Positions 46,644-61,766 of a stretch of DNA of 64,000 bases are shown piece after piece. The notes under the pieces were generated by a model. That model saw nothing but the letters and a program-made list of their open reading frames with translations. It did not search any database and was not told where the DNA came from. Each line of letters begins with the position of its first letter. The first letter of the stretch is position 1. A program made the translations under genes and the position numbers. The stretch is from Nitrospira japonica (lineage in GTDB: Bacteria; Nitrospirota; Thermodesulfovibrionia; UBA6902). The DNA lies in contig DYJL01000001.1 of the NCBI GenBank assembly GCA_020723105.1, positions 1 to 64,000 on the forward strand, given 5' to 3'.

Positions 46644-46671
46644 GCTGTCAGCTGTAAGCTGTCGGCTTTAA
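46644..46671 (+). repeat. Heptad array immediately before tRNA-Leu
   Basis: Four units: GCTGTCA, GCTGTAA, GCTGTCG, GCTTTAA, ending 2 bp before the first base of the tRNA gene. Confidence 0.85.
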
Positions 46672-46673
46672 AT

Positions 46674-46759: not shown

Positions 46760-46767
46760 TTTTCTTT

Positions 46768-47895
46768 TCAATGAGTTACATTCCTCAGACATGTCACCTC
46801 TCTCTCCTCAAAATCAGCGACTGTGCCCAAATTGTGCCCGAAATGTGCCTGTACCCTCTGGATTTTTTCTTCTGATTCTTCATGGAGCCTGAATACCTTT
46901 TCGGATGCCTTTTTCAGATCTGTTTCATTGACAATGTTATATCTGTCAAATACTGCTCTTGTCTTATGACCTGAAATTTTCATGGCAACCCTTTCAGGTA
47001 CGCCGGCTCTTATCATGTTTCTTACTGCGGTTCTTCTGAGGTCATGGAAAAGTTTACCTGAAAGACCGATCTCCCTGCAGGCAGACTCCCATGCGGACCT
47101 GAAATCCTTGATGGATTCTCCGTTTCTAAAACAGACATAAGGACACTGAAGATACGATTTATCCCTGAGGGTTTTTCGTTTGAATAGAGTGTCGTAAAGT
47201 TCGCCCGTAAGATAAATTATCCTCGGTTCGTTATTCTTGGTTGTGCCTGCTTCGAGAGTTATTTTCCTTTCAAAGATATTTACCTGTTTCCATGTTAGCG
47301 ACAGAATTTCTTCTTTCCTCATTCCTGTGTAATAGCCGATAATGAAAACAGGCTTAAGATAATCAGGTAAGATATCTCTAAGCTTCAGGTACTCCGCATG
47401 TTCAAAGTAACCTGTCCTGATATTGTTCTCTTTTAGCTTGGGTATGTACGGAATCTGAATTACCTTCGGCGGGGTCTGTCTTGCTCCTAAAGTGAACATT
47501 CTTTGTAATGCGGAAAGTTCACGATTGATCGTTCCGTTACGTGCTTTCTGTTCCTGTCTTTCCACGATGTACCGCTGAATCAGATCCGAAGTGATGTTAG
47601 CAACTTTCATGTTCGAGAAAAATGAGCGCAAGTGATTCAAACTGTGCTCGACTCTCTTAAGAGATTTTCTGCCGTTAAGTTTGTAATCTGTAAGCAAATC
47701 TTTTTCAAGTTCTTCAAACATGACTCTGCCGGATTTGAGACCTGGAAATTTATTTTCCACAATTTGACCTTCTCTTAATTTCAGTAATCTCTTGGCATCA
47801 CTTTCTTTTGTCGAATTTGTGCTTTCACGGTACGATTTTCCATTACGGTAATACTTAATCCAAAATACCTGGCCTCGCTTGTAGAGCATTCCCAT
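46768..47895 (-). CDS. int: Tyrosine recombinase/integrase
   Basis: 375-aa phage-type integrase. The N-terminal arm-type region ([20 protein letters not shown]) is followed by a SAM-like core-binding domain (about 60-160). The catalytic domain has Arg in TGMRKEE (about residue 188), HDLRR (about 285), [14 protein letters not shown] with the nucleophile Tyr (about 316), and the connecting Lys in TLEAGTTKN. The gene ends 8 bp from the tRNA-Leu 3' end, as is typical of elements integrated in tRNA genes. GGAGG stands before the start; the stop codon of the XRE gene lies just upstream, so the two are co-transcribed. Confidence 0.93.
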
Positions 47896-48120
47896 TTATT
47901 TTTCACCTCCTTCCTTTTTTGATTGTTTTTTACTCCGAGATTTTTTCTCACCCCCTTCCAATTCCAATGCTCTCAGGGCAAGAGATAGGAATGACGGAAC
48001 TTCTCTGGAACCTCTTTCCCATCTGCTAACGGTCATGGTGGCAACACCCAAAGCACTTGCAAGCTGACTTTGGCTATAAGTGTTTTTTTCTCTCCACCGT
48101 TTGAGTGCATCAGGTGTCAT
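47896..48120 (-). CDS. XRE-family HTH regulator of the element
   Basis: 74-aa protein with a Cro/C1-type HTH (TPDALKRWREKNTYSQSQLA, then VATMTVSRWERGSREVP) and a Lys-rich tail. It directly precedes the integrase gene. The ATG at 48120 is only 5 bp downstream of a strong -10 box (48126-48131), so the transcript should be leaderless, as for the cI repressor of phage lambda. It likely controls integration or excision. Confidence 0.85.
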   Translation of the reverse strand: MTPDALKRWREKNTYSQSQLASALGVATMTVSRWERGSREVPSFLSLALRALELEGGEKKSRSKKQSKKEGGEK

Positions 48121-48125
48121 GGCCA

Positions 48126-48154
48126 ACTATAAACCAATGGCATATAAATGTCAA
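48126..48154 (-). promoter_or_regulatory. Promoter of the XRE-integrase operon, leaderless
   Basis: On the minus strand TTGACA (48149-48154), exactly 17 bp, TATAGT (48126-48131); the start codon at 48120 begins 6 bp after the -10 box. Confidence 0.75.
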
Positions 48155-48164
48155 GATGCTCTCT

Positions 48165-48359
48165 TTAAAAGGTGAATTGAGTTTTATTTTTTTCGATCCA
48201 CGAATCCATATCCTTTATATCGAGGAGTATCCGTCTGCCATCTTTGATGTACGGCATTTTCCCAGCCCATAACATTTCTCTTAAAGCCCATACGCTCCGG
48301 CCCAAATAAACGGAAGCCTCATTTATGTTATAAAGGCGCTTCTCAGATTTTATACGCAT
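48165..48359 (-). CDS. Excisionase/AlpA-like MerR-type HTH protein
   Basis: 64-aa winged-helix DNA-binding protein: YNINEASVYLGRSVWALREMLWAG, then PYIKDGRRILLDIKDMDSWIEKN, the HTH_17 pattern of excisionases. Located upstream of the XRE-integrase operon on the same strand, it is the likely recombination directionality factor. The region 48360-48638 beyond it is AT-rich, with one palindrome-like pair GCTACC/GGTAGC at about 48528-48571, and no gene. Confidence 0.8.
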   Translation of the reverse strand: MRIKSEKRLYNINEASVYLGRSVWALREMLWAGKMPYIKDGRRILLDIKDMDSWIEKNKTQFTF

Positions 48360-48638
48360 TAGGGGGCCGTTACTGTATCTTGAAACATCATGATATTTCT
48401 GGTTTATAGATGCTGTGTTATGTAATGAATTTTAAATTTGTTCAAATAGCTTCTGAAGTCAGTTCTTCACCTCTGTATCGTATATTACTCCATAGTAAAC
48501 AAACTCGGATAATCTCCTAAAACCTGCTACCACTTGATTTATTGATATTAAATACCGATAAAAGGGTAGCAACGATTTCGGGACATGTTTCATTCATGTA
48601 GGAAAATCGATTTGCAGTAACATTATTGCAGTTTAATT

Positions 48639-49664
48639 ATGGACAGGAAGCACAAAATACTTATCATCGATGACGATTTCACGATTCGGCAGTCGTTATT
48701 ATTTATTTTGAAAGATAAGTATTATATCTTCTGTGAAAAAGGGGCTCTTCAGGGCATAAACTGTCTGGCTCAAAATAAAGTAGACGTGATAATAATGGAC
48801 ATAAGAATGCCGGAAATGAACGGCATAACTGCATTAAAACAAATCAAATCAATGTATCCGGGGGTTGAAGTAATAATTATGACTGCCTATGCGAACATTG
48901 AGACCGTTCAGGAATCAATTCGATACGGCGCTTCTGATTATCTGGTTAAGCCTTTTGATGTTCGTGACGTTCATGCTATCGTCGAGAGTGCCCTCCAAAA
49001 AAGAGAAATAAGATTGGGCCTCCTGTCAGAAAAAAATAAGCTTTTTGAAGCAAATCTGTATCTTGAGGAAATTCTAAGAACAGCCAAGCAGGAAATATTT
49101 AAAACTGTTGAAAGCAACATCGTAACATTATTAAAGACTGTTGCAGCAAAAGACGGATATACGTGGCAACACTCAGGGAGGGTCAGAGAATTAGCCGGGA
49201 AGATTGCGGAAACATTAAAACTGAATTTTGATGAGATACTGTGGCTTAAATTTGCCGCGGCTGTGCATGATATCGGGAAAATCAGAATTGACGGAAATCT
49301 TTTGATAAAAAATGGACAACTTACTCCGGAAGAATACAAAAATATAAAAACACACGCTGAAATAGGGGCCGATCTCATAAAGGATACCGGATTTATGAAT
49401 GATATTGTTCCGTCAATAAAGCATCATCACGAACATTATGACGGAACAGGATATCCGGGCAGCATCAAAGGCGAGGGGATTCCTTATCAATCGAGAATTA
49501 TTTCAGTAGCTGAAGCGATAGATTCTATGGCGCACTCGCCATTTAGGAAAAAAATATTAAACCGGGATCAAATCAAAAGAGAACTTGAGGATTGCGCCGG
49601 CACACAGTTTGACCCGAAAATAATAAAGAGCGTACTTTCGTCAAACCAGATCTGGCATAACTAA
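48639..49664 (+). CDS. Response regulator with HD-GYP c-di-GMP phosphodiesterase domain
   Basis: 341-aa two-domain protein. The receiver domain (1-125) has the acidic pocket (IIDDD) and phospho-acceptor Asp54 in VIIMDIRMPEMNG. The HD-GYP domain has VHDIGKIRI near residue 210 and HHEHYDGTGYPG near 262, the residues that hydrolyse c-di-GMP in RpfG-type enzymes. A short helical linker joins them. No histidine kinase is adjacent. It runs tail to tail with the following gene, overlapping its stop by 4 bp. It is unusual cargo at the edge of an ICE, between integrase and conjugation genes. Confidence 0.9.
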   Translation: MDRKHKILIIDDDFTIRQSLLFILKDKYYIFCEKGALQGINCLAQNKVDVIIMDIRMPEMNGITALKQIKSMYPGVEVIIMTAYANIETVQESIRYGASDYLVKPFDVRDVHAIVESALQKREIRLGLLSEKNKLFEANLYLEEILRTAKQEIFKTVESNIVTLLKTVAAKDGYTWQHSGRVRELAGKIAETLKLNFDEILWLKFAAAVHDIGKIRIDGNLLIKNGQLTPEEYKNIKTHAEIGADLIKDTGFMNDIVPSIKHHHEHYDGTGYPGSIKGEGIPYQSRIISVAEAIDSMAHSPFRKKILNRDQIKRELEDCAGTQFDPKIIKSVLSSNQIWHN

Positions 49665-50098
49665 TCTTTTTTCTTCAGGATACTTATCTCATCAAAACAA
49701 TCAACTTCTGTTGTAAGACAAAGTGTTTCGAGGAAATTCGTTATGAGCATGGCCGTGTTTGGATGGCGGTTGCTAATTTTATTACAGACAGAAAGAAATG
49801 CTTTTTCTTTTTCATTCAGGATAACGCCCTTATGGTCCCCTATAAGGTTAACAAAATCTTTGTATCCGTATTGAACCAGGAGATCCTTTATCTCGTTAGG
49901 AGTAAAACCCATAGCTTCAGCGATCTTTATGAAAAGAGGTTCTACAATTTTCTTTTCCTGAAGAATCAGATGATGCAGAGTTGTCCTAGATGTAACTTCG
50001 CTTACCCTTGAATGATTGATAAAATCTTCAATCGTGTCCCATCCTTTAGCATGCATTTTCCTTGTCAGGGGATTATTGGGATATGCAACCTTTCTCAT
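49661..50098 (-). CDS. Putative XRE-like repressor of the element
   Basis: 145-aa protein. Residues 20-75 (WDTIEDFINHSRVSEVTSRT ... IAEAMGFTPNEIKDLLVQYGY) have the helix pattern of an XRE/lambda-repressor HTH. The C-terminal half is helical and unfamiliar. It is divergent from the gene at 50225, across a palindromic operator (50117-50135), which suits an autoregulated repressor. No database family is recognised with certainty. Confidence 0.55.
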   Translation of the reverse strand: MRKVAYPNNPLTRKMHAKGWDTIEDFINHSRVSEVTSRTTLHHLILQEKKIVEPLFIKIAEAMGFTPNEIKDLLVQYGYKDFVNLIGDHKGVILNEKEKAFLSVCNKISNRHPNTAMLITNFLETLCLTTEVDCFDEISILKKKD

Positions 50099-50104
50099 GA
50101 TAAT

Positions 50105-50151
50105 AGTATAATGTTATTTGATTTAATAAATCAAATTAATTATTTATCAAA
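50105..50151. promoter_or_regulatory. Divergent operator with TTTGAT/ATCAAA palindrome
   Basis: A perfect 19-bp palindrome TTTGATTTA-A-TAAATCAAA (50117-50135) and a further half-site ATCAAA (50146-50151). On the minus strand TTGATT, 18 bp, TATACT (-10 at 50105-50110) forms a promoter for the repressor gene, and the palindrome covers its spacer. Confidence 0.7.
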
Positions 50152-50161
50152 TTAAACAAAC

Positions 50162-50190
50162 TTGACAAACAATAAAAAAAGTTGTAAAGT
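50162..50190 (+). promoter_or_regulatory. Strong promoter of the 50225 gene
   Basis: TTGACA (50162-50167), 17-bp spacer, TAAAGT (50185-50190). The open frame that begins with TTG at 50162 cannot start there because it is the -35 box. Confidence 0.65.
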
Positions 50191-50224
50191 TAAATATCAA
50201 TATTTCCCCTTTTACGCTTGTTGT

Positions 50225-50491
50225 ATGTTTAATGAATTTACACTTATAACGGCCTGTGTTAACTGTAAAAGCTGTGAGCAGGTGCCGCGATGTCCTTTAA
50301 GAGTGCCGCTTAACACAATAAATCCAAGACGATTCACCCCGAAGCCAAAGATTGATTTAAGATTTTGTCGCTCGAGGCAAAAAGATACCAGAGAGGATGA
50401 CATACAGGATGACATGCAGGATTTCCCCAGCCTTTTATCTGGAATAAAAGAAATGCAAAGTATATTAACGGAATTCATAGATTCTTCTTAG
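50225..50491 (+). CDS. Small Cys-cluster protein, unknown
   Basis: 88-aa protein. Near the N-terminus four cysteines are spaced C-x2-C-x2-C-x5-C (CVNCKSCEQVPRCPL), suggesting a small metal or Fe-S site. The rest is basic and then acidic (DTREDDIQDDMQD), with a helical end. It is transcribed from a strong promoter under the divergent palindromic operator, so it may be the first lytic-type or transfer-type gene of the element. The start at 50225 is the first ATG after the promoter; no good ribosome site is visible. Function unknown. Confidence 0.5.
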   Translation: MFNEFTLITACVNCKSCEQVPRCPLRVPLNTINPRRFTPKPKIDLRFCRSRQKDTREDDIQDDMQDFPSLLSGIKEMQSILTEFIDSS

Positions 50492-50521
50492 TAAATTTTT
50501 TTGTTTTTATTATCAAATAAG

Positions 50522-50542
50522 TTGATATACATATTATATCAA
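50522..50542. promoter_or_regulatory. Second TTGATAT/ATATCAA operator-like palindrome
   Basis: Inverted repeat TTGATAT-x7-ATATCAA in the 185-bp gap before the sigma-like gene. Its half-sites resemble those at 50117. The same gap has another inverted pair TACATAT/ATATGTA at about 50588-50612. Confidence 0.5.
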
Positions 50543-50676
50543 TTGTAATAACAGCTTTGCTAAGCATTAAATCGAATTACAAACGAATACATATAACACA
50601 ACGAATATGTAATACATTAGAACATCACATCTACTGATGTATTACCCAAAAAATAATAAAACTTTGGAGGTTGCCC

Positions 50677-51381
50677 ATGAATAACGGGAACGGCAAAAAA
50701 ATTGACAAACATGGAAACGCGAAAGAGGACAACAGCAAACAGGTTGATGAGGCTTTGCTGGTCTGGCAGTCACTGCAAAAGCAGATTAAGTATCTTTGTG
50801 AAAAAATAATCCGCTTCAATTCTATTAATACAGTTGAGGATTATATGCACGAAGCTTTTCTTGCCTGTTATGACGCAGTATGCCGTTATGATTCTTATGT
50901 AACCAAAAAGAAAAAAGAGCATGCCGCAGATCAAAAGGCAATAGGATGGAGTAAAGAAGTTCTTTGTGATCCCGGCAGTAGCTCACCTGCGCCCTACCAT
51001 ATTACGCAAATCGATAATGCAACACAGATGATCAATAAAACAATCATGAAGATTGAGGTCTTTGCTTTCTGGTATATCCAAAAAAGATTTTTCAAGCTCG
51101 CGGATATGAAAGAGGTTGTATTCAATATTTTCACTGAGGATGGGGAGTATATTGAAACGCTCTCTAATAGTGAGTACCGGAAAAAGAAAAAAGTTCTTGA
51201 ATTAAGAAAATGCGTCATCAGTACATCGAATATATTTAAATCAATGGATAAGCCTGATAGTGATGAGGACGAAGACAGCATTCAGGAATTCGTTGATCTT
51301 ACATTCATGGGTTTTAATGAAGAAGTCCGGATGATGCTTGAAGAGGATATTTCGAGATTTAAACTGGGGGTGGCAATTTAG
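50677..51381 (+). CDS. Sigma-70 region-2-like protein (candidate half of a split sigma factor)
   Basis: 234-aa protein. The segment VEDYMHEAFLACYDAVCRYD matches the sigma region 2.1-2.2 pattern (D-D-x-x-Q-E-x-x-L-G-L-x-x-A-V-x-x-Y-D), and after an insert of about 50 residues VFAFWYIQKRFFK resembles region 2.3-2.4 (TYAYWWIRQ). No region 4 is found in this protein. The next gene, whose ATG follows directly after this TAG, carries a region-4-like HTH. TGGAGG 6 bp before the ATG at 50677 sets the start. Two-polypeptide sigma factors are known in Bacillus (SigO-RsoA). This is a motif-level match only. Confidence 0.5.
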   Translation: MNNGNGKKIDKHGNAKEDNSKQVDEALLVWQSLQKQIKYLCEKIIRFNSINTVEDYMHEAFLACYDAVCRYDSYVTKKKKEHAADQKAIGWSKEVLCDPGSSSPAPYHITQIDNATQMINKTIMKIEVFAFWYIQKRFFKLADMKEVVFNIFTEDGEYIETLSNSEYRKKKKVLELRKCVISTSNIFKSMDKPDSDEDEDSIQEFVDLTFMGFNEEVRMMLEEDISRFKLGVAI

Positions 51382-52008
51382 ATGTATCATCATATGAAAC
51401 CACTGGATAAGAAGGAAATAGACAAATTATTCAGGCAGATCAAAAAGGACCGTCCCGACCTGCATACCCTGGAAAAAAATGAAATGGCAAGTTTAAGCCA
51501 TATCGGTCATCTCTATGTATTGGACAATGTAACACTGAAAGAGCTTTCAGAGTTCTGGGGCATTAGTAAAAACGGCGTCAGGAAACGGCTAAAAGAAAAA
51601 GTAAAATCCAAATCATGGTTTTTCAAATTGGCGGATAAAAATGAAAATGCAATGATAAAACTCTGTCCCGGTGACGCATTTCCCGATATTGGTGAGTACG
51701 TTAATTTTCTTAAATGGCGCTCTATATGTAAAAAGGAAAAAAGTATCTCAATAGCGGAGGTGGCAAATGTTCTGGGAATATCTAAAAGAACGGTTTATCG
51801 CTATATAAAGAGCGGGGAGCTTCATGCTTGTGGAGCTGATGAGACTATGATAATGAGGTTTTCATTTAATGCATTTGTTCAAAAAATAATTTTGGAAACA
51901 GAAATCAAACTCATTTTAATGAAAAATTATATCCAGAAAAACCAGAGAGAATTCAACATACCTGAAGGCAGCTCAGGTTCATGCTTTTGTGACACTGTGA
52001 GACAATAG
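51382..52008 (+). CDS. Double-HTH protein (sigma region-4-like plus excisionase-like HTH)
   Basis: 208-aa protein. Residues about 40-75 (HLYVLDNVTLKELSEFWG ... ISKNGVRKRLKEKV) resemble sigma region 4 or a similar HTH (L-T-L-x-E-I-x-x-x-x-G-I-S). Residues about 115-145 (SISIAEVANVLGISKRTVYR, then SGELHACG) form a second HTH of the excisionase/HTH_17 type. It starts at the base after the previous stop codon, so synthesis is coupled. The last dozen codons overlap the first unit of the 43-bp repeat array at 51974. It may be a DNA-binding partner of the region-2-like protein. Confidence 0.55.
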   Translation: MYHHMKPLDKKEIDKLFRQIKKDRPDLHTLEKNEMASLSHIGHLYVLDNVTLKELSEFWGISKNGVRKRLKEKVKSKSWFFKLADKNENAMIKLCPGDAFPDIGEYVNFLKWRSICKKEKSISIAEVANVLGISKRTVYRYIKSGELHACGADETMIMRFSFNAFVQKIILETEIKLILMKNYIQKNQREFNIPEGSSGSCFCDTVRQ

Positions 52009-52102
52009 CGGGAACTCAGGTTCCCACTTTCGTGACACTGCGAGACGAAAGCAGGAACCCTGGTTCCTGCTATTGTGACACCGTGAGATAAAACTGGGAA
52101 CT
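51974..52102 (+). repeat. Three tandem 43-bp palindromic iterons before parB
   Basis: Units at 51974-52016, 52017-52059 and 52060-52102, exactly 43 bp each with no spacers. They share C-A/T-GGTTC, a central GTGACAC-x-G-x-GAGA and a 3' GGGAAC/GGAACC arm. Unit 2 folds into CTTTCGT/ACGAAAG plus GGTTCC/GGAACC. The junction of units 2 and 3 forms GCAGGAACC-CT-GGTTCCTGC. The left arm of unit 3 (CTATTGT) is complementary to the right arm of unit 1 (ACAATAG). Changes between units often preserve pairing. It is a candidate centromere, origin or operator. Confidence 0.9.
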
Positions 52103-52165
52103 GACAAAAAGTAATATCACGATAGAACCATTTCTATCCTATAGTATCAACGGAGGTAAGTAAGA

Positions 52166-53428
52166 ATGAGTGAAACAAGTAAGACAACATCATTGGAGTC
52201 ATTATCGCGAGATCCTGTTCTAATGGTTGAAACTGAAAAATTAAAGGTTATTGATCAACCTATGCCCGATCTTGATTCAGGAATTCTTCTGTGGTTGGAA
52301 AATAGTATAAAGGAATTTGGCATCAAGATTCCGATTAGAATTTCATCCGACTATACGATCATCGACGGCCGGAACCGGTACGCAATCGCGAATAAATTGA
52401 AAATGGATATGGTCCCATGTATCATCTCAGACACGAACTCGAATCCTCTTGAGCAGGTCTTAAAGTATGACCTGGAGCTTGGCAGAAGAGCCATCTTGCC
52501 GCATGAAAGAAGCAAACTACTTATTAAAAGGAATAAGTATTACAAAAAATGCGAGGAAGACAGCATTGATTGCTGTCTAACGAAGATTATCCCTGAGATG
52601 CATGATACGGCAAAAAAGATTTATGAGGTCTCAAGGAATATGTCCATTATTATGAACATCGCAGCTCAGCCGCGGGAAGTTCAGGCAGCCTTTATAAAAG
52701 AGATTGCGGTAGTGGTTGATGATAAGCTGGACGGTAATCTCTCGGAAGAGATAAAGAGACTGAGTCAAACTGAGATCGATTTAAAGAAGGAGCTGGAATC
52801 AACCAAAATAGCCCAGGACAGGATTCTCAAGGAATACGAAGATATGAAAAATCAGTTTGTCAGATTACAGGGGAACATGAAGGCTGACATAGAAAATAAA
52901 CTTAAAACCAAAGAAAAAGAACTTGAAGAAAGATATAAAGTTTCATCACCCGAGGAAATACAAAAACTTGCCGGAAAAATACGGGAAGATGTCCACGAAG
53001 AATACGACAATGAACTTTATGATCTTCACGAAAAGCTGAAAAATATGTCCAAATCGCTCAGTGATAAAAGCGAGAAACAAGATAAATTAAAAGAAGAGTT
53101 AGCGGAATTGGAACAAAAGAAAAAAGATCTGGAACTCATAAATCAAAATCTCAAAAATAAAATAGGGGCTCACCATAATGTCATAGTGGGACTTGCGAGA
53201 CCTGACAAGTTCGCAAAGCGTTTGGAGATGACATTCAATGATCTTAACAACACATTCACAGGATTAACTGAAATTGGGTTTGATGGATTTGATGGTTATT
53301 TTATAGAGCACATGCGGAAAACGCTGGAAAAGATCAAAGACGTCACAGTGGAACTCGAAAAGCTTTTTCAGAAGATGTCTGCCAACGGCAACAGTGGTAC
53401 AGAGAATCTTGGAAAAATCGGAAATTAG
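52166..53428 (+). CDS. ParB-like partition/nuclease-fold protein with long coiled coil
   Basis: 420-aa protein. Residues about 20-130 are a ParB N-terminal domain with IDGRNRYAIANKLKM (the G-x-x-R-x-x-A box) and LPHERSKLL for the HTH-adjacent part. Residues about 195-350 form a Lys/Glu-rich coiled coil, and a helical C-terminus follows. No ParA is adjacent. The 3 x 43-bp array lies only 63 bp upstream, so it probably binds there, either for segregation of the excised circle or for autoregulation. GGAGG lies before the ATG. Confidence 0.78.
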   Translation: MSETSKTTSLESLSRDPVLMVETEKLKVIDQPMPDLDSGILLWLENSIKEFGIKIPIRISSDYTIIDGRNRYAIANKLKMDMVPCIISDTNSNPLEQVLKYDLELGRRAILPHERSKLLIKRNKYYKKCEEDSIDCCLTKIIPEMHDTAKKIYEVSRNMSIIMNIAAQPREVQAAFIKEIAVVVDDKLDGNLSEEIKRLSQTEIDLKKELESTKIAQDRILKEYEDMKNQFVRLQGNMKADIENKLKTKEKELEERYKVSSPEEIQKLAGKIREDVHEEYDNELYDLHEKLKNMSKSLSDKSEKQDKLKEELAELEQKKKDLELINQNLKNKIGAHHNVIVGLARPDKFAKRLEMTFNDLNNTFTGLTEIGFDGFDGYFIEHMRKTLEKIKDVTVELEKLFQKMSANGNSGTENLGKIGN

Positions 53429-53493
53429 ATTAACTCGACTAAATAACTCTGTGGTGACCTTTCCCCTGCTATAGTAGTTGATATATGCTGAGT

Positions 53494-53739
53494 CTACTGA
53501 TTGTCCAGTGAAATTTTATCCATAACCATCTGAATCTGTTTTTGAGTCATCCAGCCTTTCTCGGAAAAAATCTCTCCAATTAGTCTTGGAGGTCTGAGCC
53601 TGCTGAAAGAGTCAATAGAGACTTGTTCTGACAAGACCTGCTTAACCTGCTCGGCAGTAACAAATCCCATTTCAATTGCGATCTGTCCGAATTTGTTAGC
53701 AAGTTTTACATCAATTTGGGTATTTATATTTTTATTCAT
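53494..53739 (-). CDS. Mini-protein with two MshEN/GspE-N-like repeats
   Basis: 81-aa protein made of two similar halves: KFGQIAIEMGFVTAEQVKQV and RLIGEIFSEKGWMTQKQIQM. These match the RLGxxLxxxGxxxxxxLxxxL pattern of the T2SS/MshE N-terminal domain, which binds c-di-GMP in MshE. Here it stands alone, with no ATPase. It faces the ParB gene tail to tail. A c-di-GMP effector role would fit the HD-GYP protein 4 kb away, but this is inference. ATG 53739 is used; the frame could begin at TTG 53745. Confidence 0.6.
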   Translation of the reverse strand: MNKNINTQIDVKLANKFGQIAIEMGFVTAEQVKQVLSEQVSIDSFSRLRPPRLIGEIFSEKGWMTQKQIQMVMDKISLDNQ

Positions 53740-53842
53740 AATCAATTTTAACGGATTCCCGTTTAAAAGTCTTTGAAGAGAGCATTATTCAACGTCACTA
53801 AGAAAAAACGGCCAGGAATTAATACATGTAAGAGAAGATGCG

Positions 53843-54304
53843 ATGATGAAACGGCAAACCGGCATAAATACATACGTTATAGCATCATTATTAATATTCT
53901 TATTTTCATTGCCGGCATATTCCTTCTGTTTTGAAGAAGCCGGTGAGATGTATGATATAGTCCCGGAAATTCTTGAGGCGATTGCACAGGTTGAATCAAA
54001 CAACCGATATGATGCGGTCAATTTTGGCAACAAGAATAGAAGCTACGACTTTGGTTTGATGCAGATCAACTCGTCATGGTATGGCAAAATCGGGAAGGAC
54101 TTATGGATGGAACTGGGGGACCCATGTATAAATATAAAAGTAGGGGCATGGATTTTGGCTCAATGTTTTCAACAATACGGATATACCTGGAAGGGGATAG
54201 GATGTTATAACGCAAGAAGTGAAGAGAAGCAAAAAATATACATATCCAAAATTCAAAAGGCCGTCAATAAGCACAAATCTCCGCCTGAATCAAAAGCAAA
54301 TTAG
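53843..54304 (+). CDS. Lytic transglycosylase (VirB1/SLT-like)
   Basis: 153-aa exported protein. A signal peptide (about 1-28, ending PAYSFC) precedes an SLT domain with the catalytic Glu in AIAQVESNNRYDAVN, then DFGLMQINSSWYG and AWILAQCFQQYGYTWKGIGCYN. Such enzymes open the murein for the conjugation channel. It is the first of the long run of same-strand transfer genes. Confidence 0.88.
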   Translation: MMKRQTGINTYVIASLLIFLFSLPAYSFCFEEAGEMYDIVPEILEAIAQVESNNRYDAVNFGNKNRSYDFGLMQINSSWYGKIGKDLWMELGDPCINIKVGAWILAQCFQQYGYTWKGIGCYNARSEEKQKIYISKIQKAVNKHKSPPESKAN

Positions 54305-54328
54305 AAATGGCGGAAAAAATATTCTCAT

Positions 54329-55009
54329 ATGTTAAATATCGGCTATCTCATACCCTTTCTGGTAATAAAGGCGCTTCCGGACTACGATTCGTATCTGGTA
54401 ACGCTTATAGATAAAGGAGTTTTAGCACAACTTCCCAGGAGATACGCGTTTAAGGATTACAAAATCGGCGAAACAGGGTGGGCGTCCGTATTTAATATTC
54501 AGGGCTCAAGAGTAACGCTGTCGCAGAAATCAACACAGTATGTCAGGAAGATCATGGAGCACATCCTTTCCCCGCTTCTGAAGGAAAAAAAGATCAAAGT
54601 CAAGAGAGTGGCAAAGATGGCCGCTGCTTCTTTTTTCAAAGTAGCTGTTGAATCTTTATGCGGCATGTCGAATAAGGATATTCTTAATGAATTGAGACCG
54701 TACCTGAAAGAAACGAAAGACTACATTGCCGAAAAAGTAATAATAGTTAAATACTCCGATGATGCACTGGAGTACATAATCAACTCGCTTGTGCCTGCTC
54801 CGTTAAACAGGATAGAGCAGATAATGATTCGTAAAGATATCAGCCAGGTAAAAATATCAGTCCCTGAGAAGTATGTCGGGATTTTTTTAGGGCCAAAGGC
54901 CATGAACGTGCTGACAGCGGCAAAATTAACGGGATATAACATCAAGATAATAGAAGTAAAGGAGGATATGAATGGAAACAACGAAGCTTCACATGACGAA
55001 ACCGAGTGA
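54329..55009 (+). CDS. NusA-like S1-KH protein without the RNA polymerase-binding domain
   Basis: 226-aa protein that aligns by eye along the central part of NusA. An S1 domain covers about 10-75 (GVLAQLPRRY, KIGETGWASVFNIQGSRVTL), followed by STQYVRKIMEHILSPLLKEK and IKVKRVAKMAAASFFKVAVE, which parallel NusA's S1-KH1 linker (FLRKLFELEVPEI, VEIKAVAREPGSRTKVAV). KH1 ends VIIVKYSDDALEYIINSL (NusA: IDIVxWSxDPAEFVxNAL). KH2 has FLGPKAMNVLTAAKLTGYNI (NusA: AIGKGGQNVRLASxLTGWxI). The NusA N-terminal domain is missing and the GxxG loops of both KH units are degenerate. It likely binds RNA and may act in antitermination or transcript processing within the element. Confidence 0.72.
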   Translation: MLNIGYLIPFLVIKALPDYDSYLVTLIDKGVLAQLPRRYAFKDYKIGETGWASVFNIQGSRVTLSQKSTQYVRKIMEHILSPLLKEKKIKVKRVAKMAAASFFKVAVESLCGMSNKDILNELRPYLKETKDYIAEKVIIVKYSDDALEYIINSLVPAPLNRIEQIMIRKDISQVKISVPEKYVGIFLGPKAMNVLTAAKLTGYNIKIIEVKEDMNGNNEASHDETE

Positions 55010-55598
55010 AACGGGAAGGGGTGTCACAGAAGAAGAGCTCAAAGACAAGGGCAAGAGAATACTTGAATTAAAGCTGCGGGCTGCGGGAAATCCGGACAGC
55101 ATATTTATACTGCCTTTCGGAACTGAGGGATTTAAGATGGCTCATATGGCCCGTACCGGCGACAAATTAATGTCCCTGGTCAAAAGAAAATTCGGGATTT
55201 CAATAGATGTGCAGCAGGCAAAGGAAATATTTCGGGAGTTTGAAGATTTCGCTGTCAACTTATGGAAATTTGTTTACAAACTGTCCCCGAATCTTCATAA
55301 CATCGAGCCAAAAGACTGGAGAAGAATTAACGATTCCATAGAGGTCAAGAAAACCATAGCTTATCGCAGGGCGTCAATTGCAGTTGAGCCGCGCTCCGAG
55401 GAATCCGCAATGATAGCCATGGCAGTCAGGATCATACAGCAAAAGAATGTTGAGTTAAGACAAACTTCAACGTTTGATGAGCTTGAAAAATTTGTCAGGG
55501 AATACGTCAAACTGCTTTCAGATTTTGACAGGCTTCTGGAAAATGCATCTGAGAAGCTGTCGGTCGAATACAGACCGTATCTTAAGGACGAGAAATAA
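54972..55598 (+). CDS. Unknown conjugative-element protein
   Basis: 208-aa, largely helical, soluble protein with no recognised domain. It overlaps the NusA-like gene by 38 bp and starts after GGAGG, so translation is coupled. Noteworthy segments are PDSIFILPFGTEGFKMAHMA near residue 41 and a charged C-terminal helix bundle. Conserved placement between the NusA-like protein and the T4SS genes suggests a transfer or DNA-processing role, but none is visible. Confidence 0.6.
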   Translation: METTKLHMTKPSETGRGVTEEELKDKGKRILELKLRAAGNPDSIFILPFGTEGFKMAHMARTGDKLMSLVKRKFGISIDVQQAKEIFREFEDFAVNLWKFVYKLSPNLHNIEPKDWRRINDSIEVKKTIAYRRASIAVEPRSEESAMIAMAVRIIQQKNVELRQTSTFDELEKFVREYVKLLSDFDRLLENASEKLSVEYRPYLKDEK

Positions 55599-55646
55599 AG
55601 AATGAATTCCGGGTCACTCCCGGATATGACAAAAAAGAGGATTGCA

Positions 55647-56069
55647 ATGACACCCACACAACCATATTTTTACGAATTGATTTACCATCCGCAGACCAGG
55701 TTTTTCCTGCAAAAATTTAAAGAGGGCCCAGGCGCACGGGTATTTACGGACGTCGTAAACATGGCGCCTCCGGATGCACGGGACGAGGCTTTAAAACTGG
55801 GAGAGGCCATGGACTCCTTCTGCAAAAATATCTACCACGTGGAGATCAAGGCAGGAAGGTTCAACAAAAGTTACGACAGCTTTATACTTCAACCTGAAGT
55901 AACAGCGCTGAGGCTGACCTACATTTTAAATACATTGAGCGCGACACATCCCCAACACTACAGAAAATTCTTTGCCGCGATTGCGGCGTCCATCTTTAAG
56001 GGCATGGCCGCAGCCGGGCTGCAGGCGGAATTTGTTACGGGAGGTAATACAGATACATGTCAATCATGA
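55647..56069 (+). CDS. Unknown conjugative-element protein
   Basis: 140-aa protein of unknown function, helical, without membrane segments or cysteine motifs apart from SFCKNI. The start at 55647 is preferred (AGAGGA upstream); an in-frame ATG at 55602 would include a hairpin CCGGGTCACTCCCGG in its first codons. It overlaps the TraB gene by 13 bp. Confidence 0.55.
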   Translation: MTPTQPYFYELIYHPQTRFFLQKFKEGPGARVFTDVVNMAPPDARDEALKLGEAMDSFCKNIYHVEIKAGRFNKSYDSFILQPEVTALRLTYILNTLSATHPQHYRKFFAAIAASIFKGMAAAGLQAEFVTGGNTDTCQS

Positions 56070-57307
56070 ACAATCTGACAGAAAAGAAAAAACAGAAATT
56101 AAGGATGTTGTTGATAGTGGGGGGATTGGTGATCCTTGTAGTTATTATATCCTCCGTCATGGGCGGCAAGAACAAAAATAAAGATATGCAGGATAACGAA
56201 GCCCGGGAAAAGGGCAAGTTCTCTCTTCTCACGGAGAAGGTGGAGAAAGAATCGTGGATTGCCGCACAGGGGACTAACATCAAAAAGCTTCAGATTGAAA
56301 ATGAGGAATTCAGAAGAGAGATGGAATCGATCAAAGGTAACCTGGAGAATATTCAGGCAAAACAAAAGGACATCGAGATTACAGCAAGAAATGCCGTTTT
56401 CTCTAACTCGGCCGGCAAGCCGGAAGATAAAATCTCAAAGCCCAATGCTGTTCCGCCATTACCAAGAATAGATAAAGACAGGACTGGGACCACGGACAGT
56501 AGCCCGGAGCATGAAGGGAAGCGGCCGAGGAAGGATTCGGCAGCATCCAGGCGCGACCTCTCCATCAAGGTCTATACGGATAGTTCAACCGTAGAAGCTG
56601 AGAAACCTGATACTAAAAAAAAGAAAGCAGAAAGCGGCCCAGCGATAACTCTTTCAAGCGGCAGTTTCATGAAAGCGGTAATGCTTAACGGCATTGACGC
56701 GCCGACGGATTTCGGGTCAAAGACCGAACCCTATCCTGTATTGATGAACGTTAGTGATACGGCAATTCTGCCTAATTTGCACAGGATGAATCTTAAAAAC
56801 TGCTTTATTATCGGCGCTGGATACGGAAATCTTGCAGATGAGAGGGCGTACATTCGGACAGAGAAATTAAGCTGCATAACGGCATCAAACAAGGTAATTG
56901 ACACTGCATTGAAAGGGCATGCAATAGGAGAGGACGGCAAGCTTGGCATAAGGGGCAAGCTGGTCAGCAAACAGGGTCAGCTTATAGCGCAGTCTCTTCT
57001 GTCCGGAACACTTTCCGGGCTTGCCAAGGCGTTTAAGCCTCAGCAGAGCGTGGCCATCAATCTAAACCCTAATAGCGGCGGCACGGGTTACGCTACACCG
57101 GGGGCAGAGGAGGTTTTACGTTCCGGTGGGGCGGAAGGTGTAAGTTCTGCAATGAATAAGGTATCGGAGTTTTACCTAAAGATGGCTGAAAAAATTTTCC
57201 CCATAATCGAGATAGATGCCGGACGAAAGGTGGATATTCTTGTGCTTGAGCAAACGGATTTAAAGCCCGGCGATGCCGGATCAGGAGGATTAAATCATGA
57301 AAAATAG
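56057..57307 (+). CDS. traB: TraB/VirB10-type T4SS channel protein
   Basis: 416-aa inner-membrane-anchored protein spanning the periplasm. TM is at about 17-36, a coiled coil at about 60-110, a Ser/Pro/charged linker follows, and then a VirB10 domain (about 190-405) with PVLMNVSDTAILPNLHRMNL, FIIGAGYGNLADERAYIRTE and GIRGKLVSKQGQLI. It forms the outer-membrane core complex with TraK and TraV. It overlaps traV by 11 bp. Confidence 0.9.
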   Translation: MSIMNNLTEKKKQKLRMLLIVGGLVILVVIISSVMGGKNKNKDMQDNEAREKGKFSLLTEKVEKESWIAAQGTNIKKLQIENEEFRREMESIKGNLENIQAKQKDIEITARNAVFSNSAGKPEDKISKPNAVPPLPRIDKDRTGTTDSSPEHEGKRPRKDSAASRRDLSIKVYTDSSTVEAEKPDTKKKKAESGPAITLSSGSFMKAVMLNGIDAPTDFGSKTEPYPVLMNVSDTAILPNLHRMNLKNCFIIGAGYGNLADERAYIRTEKLSCITASNKVIDTALKGHAIGEDGKLGIRGKLVSKQGQLIAQSLLSGTLSGLAKAFKPQQSVAINLNPNSGGTGYATPGAEEVLRSGGAEGVSSAMNKVSEFYLKMAEKIFPIIEIDAGRKVDILVLEQTDLKPGDAGSGGLNHEK

Positions 57308-57815
57308 TTTACTCATATTAATTGTCTTATTTGTAGGAATCATTATGGCAGGTTGTGCGCCAAAGTATGCCTGCAAGGAAACAATTCCGAAAACGCGGTG
57401 TGCCTCACTAACAGAGGTATATGCTGAACAGGTTACAGGGCTGCCGGCTTCCGATTCAGTGGAAAAAGTTTCATCTCAAGAAGCGATAATTCGGAAAAGA
57501 GACAGAAAAGACGGGCATTATGCAGCCCTGATAGTTTCGTCTTTGAACAATAGTGGACAACATCGGGATTTAAACAGCGTTGAAATAGTCAAAGGCATGA
57601 AGGGCGATGATCAACTGCCCATTCTCAGGCCTCCCAAGGTTGTTCGGATATGGTTTGCGCCATGGGTGGACAGCAATGAAGACCTGAACATGGATACCTA
57701 CATCTATACGGAGATTCGCGGGACCAAATGGATACTTGGCGAGAAGACGCCAGGAAGCGGGAGGTCCAATACCTTGCCCGGAAATATCGGACGCATAACC
57801 GGTGCGCTTGAGTAG
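57297..57815 (+). CDS. traV: TraV-like outer-membrane core lipoprotein
   Basis: 172-aa lipoprotein with lipobox IIMAGC (Cys20), followed by a second pair CKETIPKTRC that resembles the TraV Cys pair. The C-terminal half (PILRPPKVVRIWFAPWVDSNEDLNMDTYIYTEI) matches the TraV pattern of interaction with TraB. It directly follows traB, as in F-type systems. Confidence 0.82.
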   Translation: MKNSLLILIVLFVGIIMAGCAPKYACKETIPKTRCASLTEVYAEQVTGLPASDSVEKVSSQEAIIRKRDRKDGHYAALIVSSLNNSGQHRDLNSVEIVKGMKGDDQLPILRPPKVVRIWFAPWVDSNEDLNMDTYIYTEIRGTKWILGEKTPGSGRSNTLPGNIGRITGALE

Positions 57816-57905
57816 TACAGAAACATATTGAGGCGCTGAAATTTCATTACCACAGGATTCCTGTGAGGGATAATCTCCGGAAATACTGAAAAGGAGGAAC
57901 ACTGT

Positions 57906-58199
57906 ATGAAATATCTCAAGGCAATACTGCCGGTCATGGCCCTAATGATTATGGGCCTGGCAGCCAATGCCTTCGCAGGCGCAAACGGCGCTGAATTCGC
58001 CCCGGTTGAGACAGCCCTGTTGGACTGGGCGCAGGGCGGGCTCGGCAGGGCGCTTGCACTGGGTATTTTCCTCGTGGGAACCGGCGTCGGCATCGCCAGA
58101 CAGTCGCTTATGTCCATTGCTACCGGATTAGGTGGCGGATTAGCCCTGTTCTATTTGCCGGACGTTATCACCAGTATCGTTGCAGCCATGATTGTGTAG
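57906..58199 (+). CDS. Conjugative pilin (TraA/VirB2-like)
   Basis: 97-aa protein: a long leader (about 1-24, ending NAFA before GANGAE) plus two hydrophobic helices (about 45-65 and 72-95) separated by a short basic loop (RQSL), the pattern of F-type and VirB2 pilins. AGGAGG lies 10 bp before the ATG. A hairpin directly after the gene (58214-58247) suggests higher expression of pilin than of the genes that follow. Sequence motifs are weak, so the assignment rests on layout and position. Confidence 0.7.
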   Translation: MKYLKAILPVMALMIMGLAANAFAGANGAEFAPVETALLDWAQGGLGRALALGIFLVGTGVGIARQSLMSIATGLGGGLALFYLPDVITSIVAAMIV

Positions 58200-58213
58200 C
58201 GTCAGGTATCCCG

Positions 58214-58247
58214 GGAAGCGGGAAGGTCATAAGACTTTTCCGCTTCC
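58214..58247 (+). terminator. Hairpin after the pilin gene, likely attenuator or mRNA stabiliser
   Basis: 15-bp stem GGAAGCGGGAAGGTC / GACTTTTCCGCTTCC with G-T pairs and a 4-base loop ATAA, followed only by ATCTTTTC, so partial termination is expected. Confidence 0.7.
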
Positions 58248-58300
58248 ATCTTTTCAGATGTAAAAAGTAATGATCAGACAAATATATGAGGAGTAATACA

Positions 58301-58522
58301 ATGCATATAGTAACGGTGCTGGACTATGACGGAAGTCTCCTGGCCGGATGCAGACCGAAACGGGCCCGCAAATTGATGAAAACGAAAAGGGCCCGGCCGG
58401 TGACATACAACGGAGCCTTTGCCATTCAATTAATAAGAAAAAGAGCGCATAAAGAAGAAGTCCGCTTAAATACCTGTGATGTAAACAACACAACATTAAT
58501 CAACGGAGGGAATGATCAATAG
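58301..58522 (+). CDS. Stand-alone RRXRR/PLMP-like mini-protein
   Basis: 73-aa protein. VLDYDGSLLAGCRPKRARKL, then MKTKRARPVTYNGAFAIQLI, fits the RRXRR (PLMP) module found at the N-terminus of IscB-type nucleases and related HNH proteins (V-L-D-x-x-G-x-P-L-M-P-x-x-P-x-R-A-R-x-L-L-x-x-G-x-A). No RuvC or HNH domain follows. It ends next to TraC (its stop is followed directly by the TraC ATG) and starts after GAGGAG, so it is co-expressed with the transfer genes. Role unknown; nucleic-acid binding is an inference from the family. Confidence 0.6.
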   Translation: MHIVTVLDYDGSLLAGCRPKRARKLMKTKRARPVTYNGAFAIQLIRKRAHKEEVRLNTCDVNNTTLINGGNDQ

Positions 58523-60961
58523 ATGGATGCCATCAAGGTAGCAGAGCAGTTATTAGAGAGAGAATCGTTAAGCGAACTTTTACCCTATCTGGCCTATGAC
58601 GATGAGCATAAGATATATGCGCTTGATGACGGCATAGGTTTTCTCCTGGAATGCTCTCCTTTGAGCCTTGCAGGCTCTGATACAGTGGCTGCCTTGAGGG
58701 GTGTGCTTGAGTCTTCGTCCAATCCGGTCGGCATGTGCATGCAGTTCATGCTGCTGTCAACCAGAGACATCAAGCCCGTTCTGGATCAGTACGTCCTGCT
58801 GCGCGAAATCCGTAACGGCAACAGTCTCTACACCGAGTTCTGCAAGAAGAGAAGGGAGTTTTATCTTGAGGGCTCAAAGAAGAGCATCCTTTCAGGATAT
58901 GAATACATTGTGCGGGATTTCAGGCTTTTTATCAGCGTCAAGCTTACGCTCAAGCTCAGGACCCCTGAGGAATACAAACGTGCGAAGATAAAAGCTGTAG
59001 AGCTGAGAAATACTATTGCCCAGGCGCTGAGGACCTCCTACCTGCATCCCCGTGCAGTCCCGGAAACAGAGCTGGTTTATCTTCTTAAAATGCTCATTAA
59101 TCCGTCTCATGAGCCCGAGACCGCTCCCCGGTGCGACCCTTCGATACCGCTTAAGGACCAGGTCGTGTATGCAGACAACAACATTGAGGTAAATAAAGAT
59201 TACATGATACTTGACGGCAAGTACTGCAAGAGTTTCACTGTCAACCAGTATCCGGAGGAATGGGATATCTCATCAGCCATTTCCTTTATAGGGGATGCAT
59301 ATGAGAATCTCAAGCAGATCCCAACAAATTTTTTTATTGTCTTCAACTGCATCACGCTGGACCAGTTGTCAACCGGCAAAAGGATACAGAAACTGTCTAT
59401 GTCGATCAACTACCAGGCCTTCGGCCAGATCGCCAAGTTTCTGCCGGACATTCTAAGGAAAAAGGAAAACGTAGACAGGCTGATGGCGCAGATGGCAAAC
59501 AAGGAGCAATTGGTCAAGGCATACTTCCATGTCTTTGTGTACGCCGATGATATGGAGCACCTGCAGCAGATGACAGGACAGATCAAGAGTATCTTCCGAA
59601 ATATCGGCATCTTACTGCAGGATGACACATACATCAACCTTCCGCTTTTTCTACAATCGCTGCCTATGGGGATTGTCCATGAGGCGCAGGGCAGCCTCAA
59701 GCGGTACAAAACACTGACGACAAGCAACGCCTCGGAGCTTGCGCCTGTACAGGCTGACTGGAAGGGCACGGGCACGCCTGTTATGCTGCTTTTTTCACGC
59801 AGAGGGCAGACGATGACTTTTGACCTCTTTGACAACAGGCAGGGCGGCAAGAATGCGATAGTCGTTGCAGGCACGGGCGGAGGTAAGAGCTTCTTTGTCA
59901 ACGAAGCAGTTGTTTCGTATCTCGGCCTCGGCAGTAAAATATGGATCATCGATGTAGGCGGTTCGTACAAGAAGATAGCAGAGGTCTTTGGCGGGGAATT
60001 TATCACATTCGGGCCTGAGTCAAAGGTCAATATTAATCCGTTTACCAAGATCAGGGATTTCAAGGAGCTTCAGGACGAGCATATGTCGGTTTTAAAAGGC
60101 ATGCTGGCGCAGATGGCGTCGCCGAACAACCCCATTACGGATATAGAATTCTCCTATCTGGAGGAGGCCATAGGGGAGTGTTTCATTAAATACCATGCGA
60201 ATACAACGATAACAAACATTGTAGAGTATCTGGCCAATGGCCCGGATTTAAGACAGCATGACCTGGGCAAGATGCTTTTCCCGTATACGAACAGGGGCTC
60301 ATACAGGAATTACTTTGAAGGGCCGAGCAACCTGAGGCCTGAGAGCAATTTTGTGGTGCTTGAACTTGAGGAGTTGAAGACAAAGAAGGATTTGCAGGAG
60401 GTTGTGCTGCTGTCTCTGATTCACCAGATACAGCAGGATATGTACCTTGCAGCAGGCAAAGAAGATGTAAAGAAACTGGTTATCATGGATGAGGCATGGG
60501 ACCTCCTGGGAGGCGGCAATACCGGAAAGTTTATGGAGGACGGGTACCGGCGTTTCAGGAAATATGGCGGAGCGGCAATTTCCATAACCCAGAGCTTCGA
60601 AGATTTCGACCGGTTTCCGGCAGGCAAGGCGATCATTGCCAACAGCGCCTTCAAGTGTTTCCTGAGACAGGAACATGCGAGCATCGAAGCGCTACGGAAA
60701 TCAAAGCAGGTAGTTTTACCCGAACACTTTTTTCAGATGATCATGTCGGTCAATACCGATCCGGGCAACTATTCCGAGGTCTTTTTGATGACACCTCTGG
60801 GATACGGCGTTGGCCGGTTGATAGTGGACCGGTTTACACAGCTTTTGTATACCACCGATCCGGATGAAAAGACGCGCATTAAGCGTTTCCTTGATACCGG
60901 GCTGGAATTAACCTTTGCTATCGAGAAAGTTATGGAGGAAGAAAAAAGTCTGAGGTCCTGA
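58523..60961 (+). CDS. traC: TraC/VirB4-type conjugation ATPase
   Basis: 812-aa cytoplasmic/inner-membrane ATPase energising pilus assembly. The N-terminal TraC-specific domain has FLLECSPLSLAG. Walker A is AGTGGGKSFF near residue 452, Walker B is KKLVIMDEAWDLLGGG near 652, and RRFRKYGGAAISITQS follows. The length matches TraC of F-like systems. Confidence 0.92.
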   Translation: MDAIKVAEQLLERESLSELLPYLAYDDEHKIYALDDGIGFLLECSPLSLAGSDTVAALRGVLESSSNPVGMCMQFMLLSTRDIKPVLDQYVLLREIRNGNSLYTEFCKKRREFYLEGSKKSILSGYEYIVRDFRLFISVKLTLKLRTPEEYKRAKIKAVELRNTIAQALRTSYLHPRAVPETELVYLLKMLINPSHEPETAPRCDPSIPLKDQVVYADNNIEVNKDYMILDGKYCKSFTVNQYPEEWDISSAISFIGDAYENLKQIPTNFFIVFNCITLDQLSTGKRIQKLSMSINYQAFGQIAKFLPDILRKKENVDRLMAQMANKEQLVKAYFHVFVYADDMEHLQQMTGQIKSIFRNIGILLQDDTYINLPLFLQSLPMGIVHEAQGSLKRYKTLTTSNASELAPVQADWKGTGTPVMLLFSRRGQTMTFDLFDNRQGGKNAIVVAGTGGGKSFFVNEAVVSYLGLGSKIWIIDVGGSYKKIAEVFGGEFITFGPESKVNINPFTKIRDFKELQDEHMSVLKGMLAQMASPNNPITDIEFSYLEEAIGECFIKYHANTTITNIVEYLANGPDLRQHDLGKMLFPYTNRGSYRNYFEGPSNLRPESNFVVLELEELKTKKDLQEVVLLSLIHQIQQDMYLAAGKEDVKKLVIMDEAWDLLGGGNTGKFMEDGYRRFRKYGGAAISITQSFEDFDRFPAGKAIIANSAFKCFLRQEHASIEALRKSKQVVLPEHFFQMIMSVNTDPGNYSEVFLMTPLGYGVGRLIVDRFTQLLYTTDPDEKTRIKRFLDTGLELTFAIEKVMEEEKSLRS

Positions 60962-61019
60962 GCGTCTGGAAGTAATATACGAATAACACTTATCTGAAAC
61001 AAAAAGAGAGACAATAACG

Positions 61020-61766
61020 ATGATACCGGCATTAATAATTCTGTCATTAGCTTTTTATCAAAACACGTATACATATGAATCTGGCTTAATACAGTTTGAG
61101 ACCGGAAAAACTTATGTATTGTGTCAGGACTCTTTTGAGACATCGTGTCATCCTGTAACGGATAAGACACTGAAAAAACCAGAGAGCAAAGAAACAATGA
61201 CAAACGGAAAAGCTGACGTGACCAAGCAAATGGAAACGGCAAACGCTAAACCCGAATCACACAGAAAGATCACGCTTCCTATAATTGAGGATATGAAGAA
61301 GTTTCAACCGGAGCAAAAAGAGGTCGTTTCTCTCATGAAAGATTCAATCCGTACAGTCTCAGTTATAAAGACTCCTTCAAAAAAGAAGGCAAGCGGCAGT
61401 CCTTTTGCTATTGAGCCCAACGGTTATTATGAACCTGACAAGATGGATGATTTCATGTCAAGGATAAAAGAAGACGAACCATCGGACAAAGAGCAGCAGG
61501 TTGTCAGCAGGGCTGAAGTGCATTTCATGATTGACGACCAGGGGCTTTATATTGGTTCATCAGACAGGCAGACGCTTGAGGCATTAAGAGAACGCTACAA
61601 GGGACATTTGCTCAGATTTAAAGGATATGGTCTTGATGAAGACGAGGCGCAGTGGATGATACTGTCAGTGATGGAGGTGTTAACGCCCGGAGAAATCGAA
61701 GAAATACAAACATACCGGGATAAAAATAAAAAACTTGTAATTGTCGAGGTGCTTAATGAGATTTGA
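61020..61766 (+). CDS. Unknown exported T4SS-associated protein
   Basis: 248-aa protein with a short hydrophobic N-terminus (MIPALIILSLAFYQNTYTY), a Lys/Glu/Pro-rich, probably disordered middle and an ordered C-terminal domain (about 165-248: RAEVHFMIDDQGLYIGSS, then VLTPGEIEEIQTYRDK). It overlaps the TraE gene by 11 bp, in the position of a small Tra accessory protein. It does not resemble TraL or TraF. Confidence 0.6.
   Translation: MIPALIILSLAFYQNTYTYESGLIQFETGKTYVLCQDSFETSCHPVTDKTLKKPESKETMTNGKADVTKQMETANAKPESHRKITLPIIEDMKKFQPEQKEVVSLMKDSIRTVSVIKTPSKKKASGSPFAIEPNGYYEPDKMDDFMSRIKEDEPSDKEQQVVSRAEVHFMIDDQGLYIGSSDRQTLEALRERYKGHLLRFKGYGLDEDEAQWMILSVMEVLTPGEIEEIQTYRDKNKKLVIVEVLNEI

Follow-up and report, generated by a model that had tools for sequence, protein, structure and literature searches.

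Specialized copies of the general elongation factor NusG serve long operons, including conjugation operons. RfaH is encoded on the chromosome and acts via RNA polymerase and ops sites; according to a 2022 paper, no antitermination system other than RfaH was known to affect the conjugation operons of Gram-negative bacteria (PMC8955417). The paper also describes conAn of pLS20-type plasmids, which combines one protein with one RNA and whose operon has more than 20 terminators (PMC8955417). As for NusA itself, the N-terminal domain of the ordinary bacterial protein docks on the flap of the polymerase, and its S1, KH1, and KH2 domains then touch the RNA (PMC12288461). Archaeal NusA is described as consisting of KH domains only, with no S1 (PMC8116511).

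We studied a gene for a NusA-like protein that lies in a stretch of 64,000 nucleotides (the window) and is carried by a conjugative element. As in bacterial NusA (TIGR01953), the order of the domains is S1, KH1, and KH2, and the two proteins can be aligned over about 200 residues. Unlike bacterial NusA, the protein has no N-terminal domain and no GxxG loop in KH1; it scores 49.6 bits against TIGR01953 (E = 2.7e-13) and does not reach the curated equivalog cut-off of 253.4 bits; and it is encoded on an element, beside a separate chromosomal NusA. Archaeal NusA (TIGR01952) also lacks the N-terminal domain, and its KH region is a weak match (22.6 bits), but S1 can be aligned in our protein and bacterial NusA scores higher. 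With the NusG paralogues and RfaH (PMC8955417), the protein would share the idea that transfer operons are served by a specialized copy of a general elongation factor. The likeness is in idea only, as our protein is related to NusA and not to NusG. With conAn it shares having two parts (there is a partner gene, see below) and a place at the start of a run of conjugation genes, which is a likeness by position. It is set apart from conAn in that both of its parts are proteins and in that terminators are not in excess.

The initial annotation placed this gene on a conjugative element, and we agree. There is an integrase gene at a tRNA-Leu gene, a repeat that marks attL and attR, and a set of proteins of an F-type transfer system: TraA, TraB, TraV, TraC, TraE, TraK, TrbC, TraU, TraN, TraF, and TraH. 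(The genes for TrbC, TraU, TraN, TraF, and TraH are past the end of the window, at contig positions 64001-84000.) The two copies of the 53-bp repeat start at 46705 and 235807, so the element is about 189 kb; we read the content of its first 37 kb. The nusA-like gene is the second gene in a run that continues into traB, traV, the pilin gene, and traC. The features are listed in Table 1.

Table 1. Features of the element in the window (positions are those of the window unless the contig is named; limits of the S1-like part are approximate)
Feature	Position	Strand	Description
attL	46705-46757	+	53-bp exact repeat; 3' part of tRNA-Leu (46674-46759); second copy at contig 235807-235859
Tyrosine integrase of the element	46768-47895	-	beside tRNA-Leu (46674-46759)
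Lytic transglycosylase (IagB/SLT)	53843-54304	+	first of the run; 24 nt upstream of the nusA-like gene
nusA-like gene	54329-55009	+	226 aa; S1-KH1-KH2 protein without the NusA N-terminal domain; from the ORF call, NusA matches, and family alignments
S1-like part	54338-54532	+	about residues 4-68; by alignment to the chromosomal NusA of the same genome
KH1-like part	54590-54763	+	about residues 88-145; GxxG loop absent
KH2-like part	54764-54964	+	about residues 146-212; loop at 54890-54901 is GPKA
Partner gene	54972-55598	+	basic protein (208 aa) with two halves that are alike; no known family
TraB/VirB10	56057-57307	+	
TraV lipoprotein	57297-57815	+	
TraA-family pilin	57906-58199	+	NF041281, 81.3 bits (cut-off 50)
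Terminator-like hairpin	58214-58247	+	15 pairs; between the pilin gene and traC; pattern match only
TraC, F-type	58523-60961	+	TIGR02746, 680 bits (above cut-off)
TraE	61741-62397	+	
TraK	62397-63143	+	

The initial annotation also saw a resemblance to the S1-KH1-KH2 part of NusA, and named a profile search with no NusA S1/KH match as the outcome that would refute it. NusA profiles do match. Besides TIGR01953 from NCBIfam, the NusA profile NF006645 aligns residues 172-377 of NusA to residues 21-217 of our protein (E = 9e-13), and KH_5 from Pfam scores 28.3 bits, which is above its gathering score of 27 (E = 2e-6). The best relatives with solved structures are NusA proteins; for instance, a phmmer comparison to NusA from M. 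tuberculosis (2asb) gives E = 7e-8. If we use a profile of the family to which the protein belongs (16 members, see below), then positions 5-213 align with residues 110-320 of a solved NusA (4mtn; E = 1.4e-15). That range covers S1, KH1, and KH2, so together with the NF006645 alignment this indicates that the architecture of S1 followed by two KH domains is present. When it is aligned with the NusA that this genome encodes on its chromosome, the protein starts at about the start of S1 and ends shortly past KH2, and the S1-like part is well conserved between the protein and its closest relative. The gene is, by sequence comparison, homologous to NusA, with a resemblance far beyond chance.

The chromosomal NusA is a full-length protein of 368 amino acids (contig C63, 412.6 bits) and is the sole other match in the genome, so the gene that we describe is an additional copy that is carried by the element. 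We also built an AlphaFold model of the NusA-like protein, and we give it little weight: it is weak (the mean pLDDT is 55.6, and about 30 in the S1 part), and four NusA rows went into building it, which biases the match that Foldseek finds between the model and NusA.

The RNA polymerase-binding domain was reported as missing in the initial annotation, and a Pfam scan of the protein finds no match to the corresponding family (PF08529). In 10 of 10 genomes tested, PF08529 has a single match, in a frame of NusA length (355-446 aa) that is apart from the element's gene, so we found no detached copy of the N-terminal domain. The GxxG loops had been described as degenerate, and this is only partly correct. 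In KH1, the loop is kept in none of the 16 members of the family. In KH2, G-x-x-G is kept in 14 of the 16, and the exceptions are the protein from the window (GPKA) and one other (L062, with GKAA), so loop degeneracy is a trait of the family for KH1 only. The family is homologous to NusA, as judged from these alignments and scores, yet it departs from NusA in features that define it (the N-terminal domain, the KH1 loop, and the score).

To define the family, we used two profiles, one from two proteins (those of the window and of genome G059; E ≤ 1e-9) and one from 16 distinct members (E ≤ 1e-26). Either of them identifies the same 17 of the 395 genomes that we sampled from the host phylum. With the 16-member profile, members score 237-329 bits, while chromosomal NusA proteins score 53-78 bits (and one more NusA scores 82 bits). 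Each of the 16 members matches TIGR01953 individually (E ≤ 0.01). By these scores, the family and chromosomal NusA are clearly separated and clearly related. In a tree with 53 rows, the family is separated from NusA by a branch that has 100/100 support and a long stem (length 4.12). (One of the rows, NUSA_L002, is a wrong fragment of 111 aa and should be ignored.) The single clade of NusA-like proteins spans 10 genera. Among 200 genomes near the host, the only other carrier that we counted is G059, whose protein is related to the whole of ours and is 36% identical. Matches were obtained in 195 of these 200 genomes; besides those in the host's own genome and in G059, we read them as chromosomal NusA, as they score at most 35 bits and the frames are 277-434 aa among the matches listed.

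The significant matches of the family are to NusA, and its weaker matches are to the KH regions of ribosomal protein S3 and to other RNA-binding proteins. This bears on the idea that the protein is an accessory to DNA transfer or replication, in which its OB-fold (S1) and its KH domains would bind the single-stranded DNA of the element. All 16 of the proteins are basic (pI 9.2-9.8), the gene is linked to transfer genes, and a KH domain with a preference for single-stranded DNA and single-stranded RNA has been reported (PMC7949032), all of which would suit such a role. Against it are the kinds of proteins that the family resembles, and the lack of any relaxase that we could identify among the neighbors that were scanned (a part of all of the neighbors). 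We consider it improbable.

A NusA that has kept the parts that contact RNA and lost its anchor to polymerase might instead be a decoy for or an antagonist of the host's NusA or Nus complexes. It would occupy the partners of NusA or its sites on RNA and would shift the host's transcription while the element is active. However, the family is a long way from the NusA rows in the tree and has lost the KH1 loop, which makes competition for the same sites unlikely, and we rate this explanation as very improbable.

It might also be argued that the gene is a broken and functionless remnant of a captured nusA, as the N-terminal domain and the KH1 loop, two hallmark parts, are gone. This is largely refuted by the way the gene has been kept. 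Its frame is open in 17 of 17 loci, and dN/dS is 0.07-0.10 in four of the five close pairs (the fifth was not computable), so the gene is maintained by purifying selection. The constant partner and the spread of one clade across genera also argue against a remnant, and we give this explanation almost no chance.

One of the related elements may have moved recently. Two carriers from different genera, G355 and G427, are 100% identical over 19,811 bp around the gene (loci L067 and L068). Their chromosomal nusA loci, by contrast, are 72.7% identical in the piece that aligns best. We take this as a sign of recent transfer, unless one of the assemblies is contaminated. L068 was excluded from our alignments and motif counts.

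Across the sampled genomes, the gene is associated with F-type TraC. Of the 17 genomes that have the gene, 15 have a TraC match (E ≤ 1e-30), compared to 41 of the 378 genomes that lack the gene (Fisher p = 3.4e-12). In the two carriers without TraC (G380 and G389), the gene is on contigs of 21.6 and 9.9 kb. By coordinates, 12 of the 15 genomes with both have them on one contig and one strand, about 4-49 kb apart. If we require TraC to score above its curated cut-off, then there are 18 genomes, of which 10 have the gene and 8 do not, so the gene marks a subset of F-type elements. Since 41 of the 56 genomes with a TraC match, and 8 of these 18, lack the gene, F-type transfer is not generally dependent on it.

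The gene tends to be at the beginning of a run of genes. Using mechanical ORF calls, it is the first gene of its run in 13 of the 17 loci and the second in the other 4. Among the 12 genomes with both on the same contig and strand, TraC comes before it in 10 and after it in G000 and G059, so in those 10 the transfer region as a whole would not begin with this gene. In 13 of the 15 same-phylum loci, TraN is among the genes downstream of it, and in the window these genes include TraB to TraK. Other neighbors that recur in the 15 same-phylum loci are a coiled-coil protein (14 loci), an HD-domain protein (14), a YbjQ-like protein (13), and a transglycosylase (13). (We clustered the neighbors by BLAST and named each cluster from one representative, L072.) The HD-domain protein is at L072:15530-16915, and G059 has a relative of it.

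A constant neighbor is the partner gene: all 17 loci have a member of its family directly downstream of the nusA-like gene and in the same orientation. (In L070 and L075, the partner was seen by profile only; L075 is cut by the end of the contig; and both are outside of the partner alignment.) In the window, when the partner gene is read from its first ATG, it shares 38 nt with the nusA-like gene. The partner proteins are basic (pI 8.6-10.0 in the 14 of 14 that we examined), and the two halves of the protein are alike (hhalign probability 95.5, E = 1.3e-8). Comparisons of the partner to Pfam and to solved structures gave nothing convincing. We set aside an AlphaFold model of the partner alone, which has a pLDDT of 41.

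A NusA that retains only the RNA side of the protein, and that is encoded next to the same partner where transfer runs begin, most plausibly regulates those runs at the level of RNA. We tentatively propose that the element carries a factor that binds RNA and, jointly with its partner, controls the transfer transcripts of the element itself, perhaps as they are elongated. A captured NusA would have been cut down to its RNA-binding S1-KH1-KH2 part; the N-terminal domain that anchors it to polymerase and the GxxG of KH1 would have been lost, and the KH2 loop mostly kept. The protein would be made at the head of a run of transfer genes, along with the basic and internally duplicated partner. It would bind the element's own transcripts via S1 and KH2 and, presumably in contact with the partner, would modify their elongation, their termination, or their coupling. 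As a result, the genes of a long transfer run would be expressed together. A role in the transcription of long tra operons, by analogy with the NusG paralogues, would fit the position of the gene. The presence of the same pair of genes in the transfer runs of related elements suggests that these elements carry their own RNA-level control of DNA transfer. As the polymerase-binding domain is missing and we found no detached copy of it, a role in elongation would need some other anchor. The loss of the nucleic-acid loop of KH1 in all 16 members and the GPKA in KH2 of the window protein also speak against the proposal, as do the genomes in which the gene follows TraC and the F-type genomes that lack the gene.

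We looked for intrinsic terminators. There are 4 sites in 238 same-direction gaps from 20 stretches of elements and 5 sites in 177 chromosomal gaps, and none of those 4 sites is in the 14 distinct same-phylum loci. At 46500-64000 in the window, there are 19 terminator-like sites, versus 15.2 (standard deviation 4.2) in shuffled sequences. There is thus no excess of intrinsic terminators in the transfer runs (the gaps were taken from mechanical ORFs, and the scan covered the intrinsic type only), and antitermination at intrinsic terminators is unsupported. The window does have one strong hairpin, between the pilin gene and traC, which was missed by the gap scan; our guess is that this is due to an ORF on the opposite strand of the gap, which is probably spurious.

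A short motif, GTAATA, often precedes the nusA-like gene. In 12 of the 14 distinct same-phylum loci, it starts 12-100 nt upstream of the start codon, and G059 has it at 24 nt; the window, L062, and L070 have no copy of it ahead of the gene. In the 14 loci, the motif is within 100 nt upstream of 17 of 222 ORFs, versus 2 of 286 ORFs in 16 chromosomal stretches from two genomes (p = 4.8e-5; the excess comes largely from the nusA-like gene itself, which accounts for at least 9 of the gaps listed, the related loci are not independent, and the motif was picked post hoc). The window and L034 were left out of this comparison. By eye, GTAATA is near the ribosome-binding region in several loci. The motif may be part of a promoter, a DNA operator, or a site on the RNA. 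A longer form, the heptamer GTAATAY, occurs in gaps of L062-L076 and, in the window, at 50609, 52111, 58293, and 60972; it is often directly ahead of the nusA-like gene and of a few other genes, and it is rarer before chromosomal ORFs than in the gaps of the elements.

These results can also be explained by a post-transcriptional regulator, which would bind the transfer mRNAs or its own leader via S1 and KH2 and would control translation or decay, with no role at the polymerase. It would presumably be comparable to FinO/ProQ-like or S1-like proteins. In favor of it are the lack of the N-terminal domain, the lack of an excess of intrinsic terminators, and GTAATA ahead of the gene, which is rarer before chromosomal ORFs. 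But GTAATA is missing from three loci, including the window, its distance from the gene varies, it could equally be a DNA element, and no RNA target is known. We think that this alternative is somewhat unlikely, and action on elongating polymerase is our first choice over action on finished mRNA.

A more specific form of the elongation proposal is that the NusA-derived protein and its duplicated partner form a two-protein, RNA-guided complex for elongation or antitermination. To load the complex, the element would use a short signal of its own, GTAATAY, close to the gene for the NusA-derived protein, and a sigma-like pair that is encoded at 50671-52008 may take part. This is speculative, and we consider it unlikely. 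If it is true, then this would be, to our knowledge, the first NusA-based counterpart of the NusG paralogues of long operons. More broadly, if the family acts on transfer transcripts, then NusA, like NusG, would have been recruited and dismantled by mobile elements, and the family would be a natural test of what S1 and KH domains can do without an anchor to polymerase.

As to the sigma-like pair, the ORF at 50671-51381 looks by eye like region 2 of sigma-70 (the match to TIGR02937 is weak, with E = 0.034), and it has a relative in G059. The ORF at 51382-52008 has a HTH_17 domain (E = 8.6e-14) and a helix-turn-helix like that of sigma region 4 (E = 2.2e-5). The two ORFs may together make up a split sigma factor that belongs to the element. 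A profile built from two rows had no match among solved structures, so the sigma reading remains a hint.

We also searched for the family in other mobile elements. With four members as tblastn queries against 72,556 plasmid records, we obtained matches in 22, 28, 1, and 1 records, and we did not recognize any member of the family among them. Of the 28 records, 12 matched under an annotated NusA, and 14 of the other 16 are records of over 1.3 Mb. The remaining two are small records: the match in a Niveibacterium record is behind rimP, and the match in a Phocaeicola record is in a frame of 420 aa; the two score 57 and 82 bits, which is NusA-like and not member-like. The Amphritea match is to a full nusA that is flanked by rimP and infB. 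The partner had no match in the plasmid records. Twelve phage records were matched, without annotation and over at most 51% of the query, and no member was recognized there. Scans of viral contigs found no member of the family, and their single hit (L077) is a chance match within another protein. Pattern scans of genome contigs found none and then five hits from Bacillota, of which the four that we inspected are full NusA proteins. As the patterns came from two divergent members (P0001 and G059), these scans say little about other phyla. In the part of the literature that we covered, we did not find a NusA copy that is devoted to a mobile or conjugative element.

Several other genes of these elements may be of interest. 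Close to the integrase gene, inside the element, there is a response regulator with an HD output domain (HD_5) at 48639-49664 of the window. In another locus (L036:358-8988), the transfer region contains a pair of very long ORFs whose products have PKD and bacterial Ig domains and are possibly surface or pilus-linked proteins. In G059, near the genes of the element, a 39-nt tandem unit (L034:12318-12743, noticed by eye) gives an ORF of 13-aa repeats.
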